A stretch of DNA of 64,000 bases from a bacterium (GTDB taxonomy: Bacteria > Hinthialibacterota > Hinthialibacteria > OLB16): contig JAJVIK010000019.1 of assembly GCA_022072055.1 (NCBI GenBank), positions 1-64,000 on the forward strand, written 5' to 3'. Each line of letters begins with the position of its first letter. The stretch's first letter is position 1. Position numbers and translations under genes: made by a program. Shown piece by piece: positions 38,415-49,795 of this stretch. The notes beneath the pieces are model-generated. The model did no database searches and was not told where the DNA came from. It saw nothing but the letters and a program-made list of their open reading frames with translations.

Positions 38415-40151
38415 ATGTTGACCGATTTGTCGATCAGGAATTTCGCCCTCATTGACTCCGCCAACATCCGGTTTGAGAGGGGTCTGAATGTCCTCACGGG
38501 TGAAACCGGCGCCGGGAAGTCGATCGTCATGGAGGCGCTTTCCATGGTGCTTGGAGAACGGGCCTCGGGGGATTGCATCCGCACCGGCTGCGAGCAGGCC
38601 ACTGTCGAGGCGGTCTTCGAGCTGGATCGTGGCAGTCCGGGGTATAGGCGACTGGCCGCTTTCATGGAGGAATCCGGTTTGGAGTTTGAGGACACGCTGA
38701 TCCTCAAGCGGATCCTGTCCCGGTCGGGAAGGCATCGCTGCCTGGTGAACAACTCGACCACCACGCTGGGAACGTTGAATGGGCTTGGGGAGCTACTGGT
38801 CGATCTGCATGGACAACATGATCACCAGACATTGCTCAACCCGAAGAACTATGTCGGCATTTTGGACGCATTCGGGGGACTCGAGGAAGCCGCGGAGGAA
38901 CTTCGAGGAACATACATCGAGTGGCGCGAGGCCCATGACCGCCATCAGGAATTGATCAACCAGGAGCGCGAGCGGAATCGGATTCTGGACAACCTGCGCT
39001 TTCAGATCGCGGAAATCGAGGAGACTCAGCCGCGCCCCGGGGAGGAGGAGGAACTCCAAGCGGAACGTCGCCGCCTCAGGAACTTTGAATCCCTCAACGA
39101 ACACTCGGCGGCGATTCTACTCCTGCTGGATGGGGGCGAGGGGGATGGCCCGGGGGCTCTCGATTCCCTGGGACAGATTCAGTCGCGGATCGAGGAGATG
39201 GCGCAACGCGATCCGGACCTTGCCTCGGCTCGAAACCTGGCCGAAAACGCGGCGTATGCTCTGGAGGATCTGGCCCGGACTGTCCGCGCTTACCATGAAC
39301 AACTGGAGGCGCAGCCGGGACGGCTGGATGAGATCGAGTCGCGCCTTCACCTGATCGCCAACCTGAAGCGGAAGTACGGCTCCACCATAGAGGAAATCCT
39401 GGCCTTCCTTGTCCGCTCGAAGGAAGAGCGCGGTCGTCTTGAGAACTACGAGGAAGAGCGCGCGAACCTGGAGAAAGTCTTCCAGCAGCTCACCCAGAAA
39501 CTCGGCAGACAGGCCACGGAGCTCTCCAAACGGCGCCGCAAGGTGGCCAAGCAGCTTTCGGGCGAGGTTACGCTTGAGATGCGTCAGCTCGGAATGGAGG
39601 CGGGTCGGTTCGAGGCCGAGGTGGCCCTGATCGACACGGCCCTCATGCCGAACGTGTTGCGACTGAACTACCCCCAAGATGACGAATCCCCGATCACCGC
39701 ATCGGGCTGGGACTATGTCCACTTCCGGATTTCCACCAATCCGGGCGAGCCGCTCAAGTCCCTGCGCCAAGTGGCCTCGGGGGGTGAAATCTCACGCATC
39801 ATGCTGGCGATCAAGGCAGTCTTGTCTCGCGTGGATGCCGTGGATGTACTGGTGTTCGACGAAATCGATCAGGGAATCGGCGGCAAGACCGCGCACGTGG
39901 TCGGTGGCAAAATCAAGAACCTCGCGGCGGAACGCCAGGTGCTCTGCATCACCCACCTCGCGCCGATCGCCTCGCGCGCGGACCATCACCTGCGGATTGT
40001 GAAACAGTCCGATGGGCAGACCACCTCGGTCTTCATCTCCGCCCTCGACGGAGCCGGCAAGACCGAGGAGCTCGCGCGGATGATGGGAACCGAGCCGAGC
40101 GAGGGTGGGCTCAAGGTAGCGGAGGAGCTGCTCCAACAGGTGGCGCGATAA
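38415..40151 (+). CDS. recN: DNA repair protein RecN
   Basis: SMC-like ATPase of double-strand break repair (578 aa). The N-terminal Walker A is GETGAGKSIVMEALSMVLG. Long coiled-coil segments occupy about residues 160-380 (for example ELRGTYIEWREAHDRHQEL). The C-terminal half has the ABC signature QVASGGEISRIMLAIKAVLS and Walker B VLVFDEIDQGIGGKTA, followed by QVLCITHLAPIASRAD. GGAGG is six bases before ATG 38415, downstream of a convincing promoter with dyads. It converges on the PEBP-family gene. Confidence 0.96.
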   Translation: MLTDLSIRNFALIDSANIRFERGLNVLTGETGAGKSIVMEALSMVLGERASGDCIRTGCEQATVEAVFELDRGSPGYRRLAAFMEESGLEFEDTLILKRILSRSGRHRCLVNNSTTTLGTLNGLGELLVDLHGQHDHQTLLNPKNYVGILDAFGGLEEAAEELRGTYIEWREAHDRHQELINQERERNRILDNLRFQIAEIEETQPRPGEEEELQAERRRLRNFESLNEHSAAILLLLDGGEGDGPGALDSLGQIQSRIEEMAQRDPDLASARNLAENAAYALEDLARTVRAYHEQLEAQPGRLDEIESRLHLIANLKRKYGSTIEEILAFLVRSKEERGRLENYEEERANLEKVFQQLTQKLGRQATELSKRRRKVAKQLSGEVTLEMRQLGMEAGRFEAEVALIDTALMPNVLRLNYPQDDESPITASGWDYVHFRISTNPGEPLKSLRQVASGGEISRIMLAIKAVLSRVDAVDVLVFDEIDQGIGGKTAHVVGGKIKNLAAERQVLCITHLAPIASRADHHLRIVKQSDGQTTSVFISALDGAGKTEELARMMGTEPSEGGLKVAEELLQQVAR

Positions 40152-47244: not shown

Positions 47245-47922
47245 ATGATTGACCCGGAAAGACTGTTGGGTGGGCTGCTGACCACCGGGTTGGAGAAGGG
47301 CTTCAAGAAGGGGGCGAAGTCAGCCAAGAAGCTGATGAAGGGGCAAGGGGTCTTGGGCGGACTCGCCCACCCGCAAAAGGCGGCCATCGGCATGGGGCTT
47401 CTGGGCCTTGCCTTCGCGGCTTACGAGCACTTCCAGCAGAATCGAGGGTCGGGAGCCGGTCCGGTATCGGACCAGGGATCCACGGCGTATGCGGGTCCAC
47501 CGCCCCCGCCCCCCTCCACTCCGCCTCCGCCTCCTCCCCAGGGCCCCATGCCGCAAGGAGGCCCGCCCGACAACCGCGCGTCGGCAGCGATGCTGTTGGT
47601 TCGCGCGATGATTGCGGCCGCCAACGCCGACCATGACATTTCAGCGGAGGAGCGCCAGGCCATCCTGGGACGGGCAAGGGAATGCGGACTCACCGAGGAG
47701 GAGCTCGGGGCGATCCATGCGGAGCTGGACCATCCTTTGAGCATGGCTGAAATCGCGTCGCGGGCCACCACCCCGGAGCTTGCGGAACAGGTTTACGCGG
47801 TCTCCCTGGTGGCGATTGAGGTGGACAGCGAGGCCGAGAGGAACTACCTCAAGGCGCTGGCGAAACGATTGGGCTTGAGCGAAGAGAGGGTGGGGAGATG
47901 GGAGAGGCAATTCGCCCCTTAA
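47245..47922 (+). CDS. DUF533/TerB-like membrane-associated protein
   Basis: The 225-residue protein has a Lys-rich N-terminus, one hydrophobic helix (about residues 46-62; AAIGMGLLGLAFAAYEHF) and a Pro-rich spacer (about 83-106). Its C-terminal TerB-like helical domain contains AMIAAANADHDISAEERQ, with the acidic DxD/E metal-binding pattern. It resembles E. coli YebE and other DUF533 proteins of unknown function. AAGGAG lies seven bases before ATG 47245. It converges on the TOPRIM-like gene with a 15-base gap. Confidence 0.78.
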   Translation: MIDPERLLGGLLTTGLEKGFKKGAKSAKKLMKGQGVLGGLAHPQKAAIGMGLLGLAFAAYEHFQQNRGSGAGPVSDQGSTAYAGPPPPPPSTPPPPPPQGPMPQGGPPDNRASAAMLLVRAMIAAANADHDISAEERQAILGRARECGLTEEELGAIHAELDHPLSMAEIASRATTPELAEQVYAVSLVAIEVDSEAERNYLKALAKRLGLSEERVGRWERQFAP

Positions 47923-47937
47923 TCCCACTGAGCCTGT

Positions 47938-48546
47938 TCACACCAAGAAGTCTTGCGCGTGTTCGAGGGATTCCAGCGCCTTGAGGCATGCATCCAGGCT
48001 CGGGGAGCGTTCGCGGGCTCGCCTCGGATCCCATGATTCTTGGGCGAACAGCGATAGCTCCGAGGAATACAACTTCCCCACTTGGGCGCTTGATCCCCCA
48101 GCGGGCGCAAGCGCCTCCGCGACCCCCCGCTTCTTTGATTTCCGCGCAAGTTCCACAAGGAACCTCTTCGGATCGGCGATTCCCTCAGGATCACCGGGGA
48201 TCTCGCGGATGGGAATGGCCAAGAACCGGGCGGCGCCTTCTCGATCCGCAAGCAGCCAGCTCTCCACCTCGCGCACGGCGAGTCGAAGGATCATGTTTGG
48301 GTGTCGGTCCGGAAGCCACGACTGGACCACTTGCGGTGGGCAGGCCATGCCGGTGTCCATGAAGTCCACCAATGCCAGATAGACACCCCCCCTTGCCGCT
48401 CGGTTGAATGCGGCAAGTCGCTTCCGGATGTACCCAATTCCTTGTTTTCCCAGGCTCGAGCCCACCTGATGTCCTGATAATTCCACCAAGCGGGCGGCCA
48501 CTGTTTCATCCACATACCCTTCCACCAAGAGGTTGATGGTTTTCAT
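47938..48546 (-). CDS. DUF4276-family TOPRIM-like protein, partner of the AAA ATPase
   Basis: The 202-residue protein fits DUF4276, a group proposed to have a TOPRIM nuclease-type fold. It starts MKTINLLVEGYVDETVA, with the conserved Glu of the VEGxxDE motif. The DxD-like pair is in LALVDFMDTG, and the group signature AVREVESWLLADREGAARFL follows. A longer in-frame start at 48663 is rejected because ATG 48546 overlaps the ATPase stop by one base (TGATG), implying coupled synthesis. Related ATPase + TOPRIM pairs (for example PARIS, and OLD/Gabija-type modules) act against phage. A nuclease role here is inference. Confidence 0.75.
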   Translation of the reverse strand: MKTINLLVEGYVDETVAARLVELSGHQVGSSLGKQGIGYIRKRLAAFNRAARGGVYLALVDFMDTGMACPPQVVQSWLPDRHPNMILRLAVREVESWLLADREGAARFLAIPIREIPGDPEGIADPKRFLVELARKSKKRGVAEALAPAGGSSAQVGKLYSSELSLFAQESWDPRRARERSPSLDACLKALESLEHAQDFLV

Positions 48547-49706
48547 CAATCGAAAAGGAAGAGCATTTGCTGAGCGTTTGAGGGAGCCGATCGAGGAAAT
48601 ACCGCTTCGGCCACGGTCAAACCGCTGTCGAGCTGCAGGCGAACCGCCTCCTCGCGGGAGCACGGGACAATCCTAGTGCCCTGCGGATCCGACTGGAACC
48701 GAAGAACCTCCTCCGCTCCGATACCAGGATCGGCGAGCATTTCCTTGGAGTGAGTGCTGATCGCAATCTGCCTCCTGACCTTCCGGTGCCGATTCACGCG
48801 CTCGATAAGCTGTGGGAGCAGGCGAACAATCTCGGAATGGAGCGAGAGCTCGGGTTCCTCCATGAGCAGCAACCCATCCCCTTCAAACAGGGACCAGAGG
48901 AGTCCAAAGAGTCGAAGAGTCCCATCGGAGAGCTGGCCTTCGTTCTGTTTTGCGGCATAAGGTCGCCAATTCTTGAAGTTGCCGACCAAGTGCGGGATGC
49001 CGGTGTCTTCATCCCTCCCGACATCAAGCGATTCGAGTTGGGGGGTCGCCACCTTCAATGCGCCGACAATCTTCTTGAGGCGTGATTTCTTGGTCCTTTC
49101 CGGCGTGGTCGCGACTGTCTGGAGAAAATCCCTCCCGAACGGATCGTCACGGATCACGCTGGGCGAAAAGCTGTTTGGATCCCGGATCAACTGTGGGAGA
49201 AGGTGCCGGTAGCTGATCCTGCGGAAAAAATTTGCGATCTCCCTAAACGGCTGGTTGGCCAGAGTTTGCTCGAGCGCGGTCTCAGTCAGCCGAACACTGT
49301 CTCGGGTATCATCCTTGTCAGGTCTCTGAAGGATGGTCTGTCCGTCCCGCACGACAACCTCTTTCCGAATGGTGGGGACTTTTTGCTTGTCTTGGTTAAA
49401 TGTCAGGTGATATGTCCAACGGGGACTGTCATCTCCCTCCTCTGTCAAATCCGCCTCAATGGATATATCCGAGTATCTTCTGGCGGACAGACAGCGGATT
49501 GCGGAAACACCTCCCCTGTATCGATCCACCGCTTGAGCGAGTCCACCGCCACGGACGGCGCAGATGTCCCGCAAAAACTTGAAAACATCCAGGAAGTTGG
49601 ACTTTCCGGACGCGTTGGGACCGATGAGAAATGTCCGATGGGTGAGGTGGACATCAACAGCGGGGAAGTTCTTCCAATTCTGGACCTTAATTCGGCTGAT
49701 ATACAT
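48546..49706 (-). CDS. AAA (ABC-type, RecF/OLD-like) ATPase
   Basis: The 386-residue ATPase has Walker A FLIGPNASGKSNFLDVFKFL near residues 27-46, the ABC-type signature QLSDGTLRLFGLLWSL, Walker B GLLLMEEPELSLH, and a switch histidine in QIAISTHSKEML. The short, coiled-coil-poor insert is like AAA_21/AAA_15 proteins of two-gene defence or DNA-processing modules. An AAGGTG ends five bases before ATG 49706. Its stop overlaps the start of the TOPRIM-like gene by one base. The DNA here looks somewhat less GC-biased than its neighbours, which might reflect horizontal gain; that was judged by eye only. Confidence 0.85.
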   Translation of the reverse strand: MYISRIKVQNWKNFPAVDVHLTHRTFLIGPNASGKSNFLDVFKFLRDICAVRGGGLAQAVDRYRGGVSAIRCLSARRYSDISIEADLTEEGDDSPRWTYHLTFNQDKQKVPTIRKEVVVRDGQTILQRPDKDDTRDSVRLTETALEQTLANQPFREIANFFRRISYRHLLPQLIRDPNSFSPSVIRDDPFGRDFLQTVATTPERTKKSRLKKIVGALKVATPQLESLDVGRDEDTGIPHLVGNFKNWRPYAAKQNEGQLSDGTLRLFGLLWSLFEGDGLLLMEEPELSLHSEIVRLLPQLIERVNRHRKVRRQIAISTHSKEMLADPGIGAEEVLRFQSDPQGTRIVPCSREEAVRLQLDSGLTVAEAVFPRSAPSNAQQMLFLFD

Positions 49707-49795
49707 GGTTCACCTTCACGGGGATTCTAGGCGACGAGTCGGATCAATTCCACCGTTGCATGGAATAATACCGTTTGGTGGCACGGGAGAGGGAT

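Follow-up and report, generated by a model that had tools for sequence, protein, structure and literature searches.

Introduction

Several described systems resemble the locus analyzed here. In PARIS (AriA/AriB; OLD class 4) an ABC ATPase that senses Ocr-like proteins and a TOPRIM protein are encoded by separate genes of one operon. Until infection AriA keeps hold of AriB, which is then set free and acts as a tRNase (PMC12409363). In Gabija GajA and the OLD nucleases both parts are fused into one chain. For BpOLD the ligands of metal A are E400, D455 and D457, and those of metal B are E404 and T506-x-E508 (PMC7049728). The ATPase PtuA of Septu and retron systems is partnered with the HNH protein PtuB. 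HEC stands for Hma-embedded candidate; the HEC series goes back to a 2024 preprint by Payne et al., which is cited in PMC12988326. The literature searched, to which that preprint does not belong, contained no experiment on HEC-01, and the defence role of this system is therefore assigned by association.

Here we describe a minus-strand gene pair from a 64,000-nucleotide stretch of bacterial DNA (contig JAJVIK010000019.1, positions 1 to 64,000), referred to below as the window. The pair encodes an ATPase (A) and a small protein (B). Like PARIS, it comprises an ABC ATPase and a TOPRIM protein as separate genes in one operon, but A fits HEC-01A models far better than AriA models and B has no AriB match. 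With GajA and the OLD nucleases it shares the combination of ABC ATPase and TOPRIM as well as the acidic constellation, and it is this group that provides the best match of B among solved folds; their single fused chain, however, is replaced by two polypeptides. Unlike in Gabija, no GajB helicase is found beside the pair, whose neighbors encode a DUF533 protein and an FMN oxidoreductase. PtuA is the best solved fold match of A, whose partner is a TOPRIM protein instead of an HNH protein. AbiL and RloB-type pairs are related in that A matches AbiLi (E 2e-21) and the best viral fold match of B is an RloB-like protein, whereas B lacks a sequence-family match to AbiLii or RloB.

The closest described system is HEC-01. 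Both proteins match it over their full length and in the same gene order, and relatives of the window copy adjoin Hma genes in four loci, in one of them between HmaA and HmaB. The window copy differs in that it is not embedded in Hma genes and in that the TOPRIM aspartate motif of B is one residue longer. The locus places an unstudied lineage among the carriers of the poorly characterized defence system HEC-01, and it further supports the view of HEC-01 as a split ATPase–TOPRIM module resembling OLD and PARIS.

Organization and identity of the gene pair

Both open reading frames are intact. The ATPase gene (48546..49706, minus strand) encodes 386 residues and the gene of the small protein (47938..48546, minus strand) 202 residues. 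The last base of the ATPase stop codon TGA is the first base of the HEC-01B start codon ATG. This TGATG junction (48544..48548, minus strand; GATTGATGAAA) probably couples the translation of the two genes. Coordinates, strand and the one-base overlap had been given correctly in the first-pass annotation of this DNA. A longer reading frame of HEC-01B with a GTG start was set aside in favor of the ATG, because the N-termini of homologues begin near the latter. The purine-rich hexamer AAGGTG (49711..49716, minus strand; CCGTGAAGGTGAACC-ATG), located 5-10 nt upstream of the ATPase start codon, is probably the ribosome-binding site. No consensus sigma-70 promoter was found near the pair, and a search of the flanks yielded no convincing target-site repeats.

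To assign the proteins we used the defence models of PADLOC-DB 2.0.0. The ATPase was identified as HEC-01A (PDLC04180, E 6.6e-140, profile positions 1-379 of 382) and the small protein as HEC-01B (PDLC04194, E 4.2e-56, profile positions 2-199 of 204). Judged by sequence, the two genes represent an ordinary, intact example of HEC-01, which is already catalogued as a candidate anti-phage system. Since A and B match the HEC-01 models over their full length, the earlier suggestion of a type not yet named has to be abandoned. AriA and other ATPase models of PADLOC score weaker than HEC-01A on the ATPase; its Pfam domain is AAA_21, named putative AbiEii toxin. The small protein is matched by HEC-01B models alone and by none of the AriB models in PADLOC. 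No NCBIfam model reached its cut-off for the pair, and HEC-01B had no match in PHROGs. The DUF4276 signature (PF14103) previously ascribed to the small protein is a real match, but its score of 22.8 bits lies below the curated Pfam cut-off of 30.2 bits and it was dropped as a firm assignment.

The ATPase HEC-01A

The RecF/OLD-like character of HEC-01A is evident from the motifs GPNASGKS, QLSDGTLRL and LLLMEEPEL, which had already been recognized in the first reading of the sequence. The Walker A motif, the signature SDGTLRL, the Walker B motif EEPE and the H-loop histidine H319 are kept across 30 homologues. An AlphaFold2 model (pLDDT 90.7) found PtuA from Septu as the top solved fold match, followed by Rad50 and SMC heads, and a search of the PDB with the sequence profile returned GajA as the first match. 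HEC-01A is an OLD/PtuA-like ABC ATPase head with every motif intact; profile, motifs and model point to a probable role as sensor or regulator. In one relative (L064:6824-8034) the HEC-01A reading frame is broken into two frames, representing either a pseudogene or a sequencing error.

Fold and putative active site of HEC-01B

In the AlphaFold2 model of HEC-01B (pLDDT 94.1) the strands 3-8, 27-33, 55-61 and 85-90 alternate with helices. The best solved fold matches are the OLD TOPRIM domains 6njx and 6njv (probability 0.99, E 0.002-0.005), the only ones with a probability >0.9 among the matches listed. The TM-scores are low (0.36-0.41), so that only the TOPRIM core is common to HEC-01B and OLD. 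A profile search against solved structures was disregarded, as it returned only Crov588, a repeat-protein artefact, and weak chance matches.

HEC-01B carries the motif VEGYVDE, in line with the VEGxxDE pattern noted earlier, and AVREVESWLLAD. In an alignment of 31 homologues E9, D61, R88 and K127 are invariant and E95 is kept in 30/31. Position 64, the second aspartate, is Asp in 25/31 and Asn in 6/31. E9 follows strand 3-8 and D61 ends strand 55-61, followed by D64, in agreement with the TOPRIM core, in which a Glu follows strand 1 and a DxD motif follows strand 3. Compared by motif and by the order of strands rather than by a measured superposition, E9, D13, D61, D64 and E93-x-E95 match the positions of the two-metal ligands of OLD. 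The model thus predicts a TOPRIM fold with its acidic cluster, and this DUF4276-like protein is probably the nuclease effector of the pair, as suggested by profile, model and invariant residues. Fold matches, motifs and the acidic cluster agree with the relationship to OLD, Gabija and PARIS that had been proposed at the outset.

The aspartate motif of the window protein, D61-F-M-D64 (codons at 48355..48366, minus strand), is of the form DxxD, whereas DxD or DxN is found in the others outside its subclade. This one-residue insertion (VDFMDTG versus VDLD) is restricted to a subclade of five members, namely the window copy, L002, L003, L004 and L089, with a clade support of 100/100. The window copy clusters with copies from Nitrospinota, Acidobacteriota and Bacteroidota (100/100). 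It appears rather doubtful that the DxxD subclade is a distinct HEC-01 subtype whose nuclease may differ in substrate choice or metal geometry.

Distribution and mobility

The pairing of the two genes is far beyond chance. In 31/31 gradable loci, i.e. loci with both genes readable, the ATPase gene lies directly upstream of the HEC-01B gene at a spacing of -46 to +9 nt, most commonly with a 4-nt overlap; one further locus ends at a contig edge. Of 386 genomes sampled, 30 had strong matches to HEC-01B (E below 1e-40) and 58 had matches of any strength, compared with none of 14 control genomes. Within the host class, strong matches occur in 4/14 genomes. On the tree, monophyly of the three same-class pairs was rejected (AU p 1.0e-8). 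The pair is horizontally mobile between unrelated bacteria. Neither the plasmid records nor the INPHARED phage records contained a match to HEC-01B at E 1e-5.

The slightly lower GC content that had been reported for this region is limited to the ATPase gene (0.557, z -3.0 versus 47 window genes) and does not extend to the HEC-01B gene, and GC3 and codon usage are ordinary in both. A recent arrival is unsupported by codon usage. Composition is therefore weak evidence for a recent arrival, and the arrival need not be recent.

In the window the pair sits between the DUF533 gene and the FMN oxidoreductase gene, the latter following purA. Two genomes of the same family (G001 and G002) conserve the purA–oxidoreductase pair, followed by other genes, and the HEC-01 pair is absent there. 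The DUF533 gene is on a different contig from the oxidoreductase gene in G001 and was not found in G002, so that this comparison covers the oxidoreductase side and a clean empty site is not demonstrable in these genomes. G001 contains a distant pair of an ATPase (27% identical) and a HEC-01B-like protein (L102:1978-3991); the host family therefore carries more than one HEC-01-like type.

Genomic neighborhood

No visible defence island surrounds the window copy (ten window genes scanned), and its neighbors are housekeeping genes. Homologues were also inspected for a fixed housekeeping context. Their contexts vary: the 100 nearest neighbors from 32 loci fell into 92 clusters, as counted with a crude ORF caller and without a matched random-gene control. 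The specific neighbors recurring between loci were defence genes only, namely HmaB (3 loci), HmaA (2 loci) and a type III methyltransferase (2 loci). Hma genes adjoin the pair in L064, L066, L070 and L074, and the order HmaB, pair, HmaA in L074 is the embedding behind the HEC name. The methyltransferase adjoins the pair in L082 and L088. WD40 neighbors common to some loci were discounted as generic repeat similarity. Several relatives are located among ordinary genes, e.g. GlnE and TGT. On a metagenomic viral contig from IMG/VR (L103:989-5603) the HEC-01 genes lie near genes for a terminase small subunit, an HNH protein and another endonuclease; this copy is probably carried by a prophage. Mobility and the association with defence genes are in line with the earlier classification as a related defence module, the antiviral role of which is putative and assigned by association.

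Proposed mechanism and alternative explanations

We propose, with a probability of roughly 75% and largely by analogy, that the pair is a HEC-01 copy acting as an abortive-infection module against phage, with an ATPase sensor and a TOPRIM effector. We infer the following sequence of events. A multimer of the ABC ATPase A probably keeps the small TOPRIM protein B inactive in a complex. Once a phage protein or nucleic acid made during infection triggers A, B would be released or activated. B would then cut nucleic acid using two metal ions, and growth of the infected cell would halt before phage production. By analogy with PARIS, host tRNA would be the likeliest substrate.

Alternatively, B might cut phage or host DNA directly, as in OLD and Gabija, within the same system. 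OLD TOPRIM domains, which cut DNA, are the nearest solved folds to B, and in the PDB the sequence profile of the ATPase matches GajA best. This reading may be held tentatively; the separate genes for A and B, however, resemble PARIS, whose TOPRIM protein cuts tRNA (PMC12409363), and no attached DNA-binding domain was recognized in B. It is highly improbable that the genes form a DNA-repair or housekeeping pair of the host lineage. Such a role would suit the housekeeping neighbors in the window and the RecF/SMC-like ATPase head, but not the patchy presence across genomes, the absence beside purA–oxidoreductase in G001 and G002, a context that varies in nearly every genome, or same-class copies that are not monophyletic. 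The coupled two-gene layout and the AAA_21 domain of the ATPase would also be compatible with a toxin-antitoxin-like or plasmid-exclusion module for which phages are not the particular target, and RecF/SMC-like ATPases are also active in plasmid defence. We consider this quite unlikely, as the recurring specific neighbors are anti-phage systems and one copy adjoins phage packaging genes. It overlaps with the abortive-infection explanation, and the two are not mutually exclusive.

Additional observations

A 14-nt perfect inverted repeat (window 47847-47860 and 47973-47986) is located between the 3' ends of the convergent DUF533 and HEC-01B genes and may be a chance occurrence. A literature search on MADS returned nothing relevant. 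At L090:11304-14171 a protein near HEC-01 possesses a long extra N-terminal region, and its C-terminal part matches the MADS ATPase MAD3 (E 1e-93). The window itself encodes a further SMC/RecN-like ATPase of 578 residues (38415-40151). This protein matches many defence ATPase models, best MAD3 with E 2e-32, and is probably the repair protein RecN.
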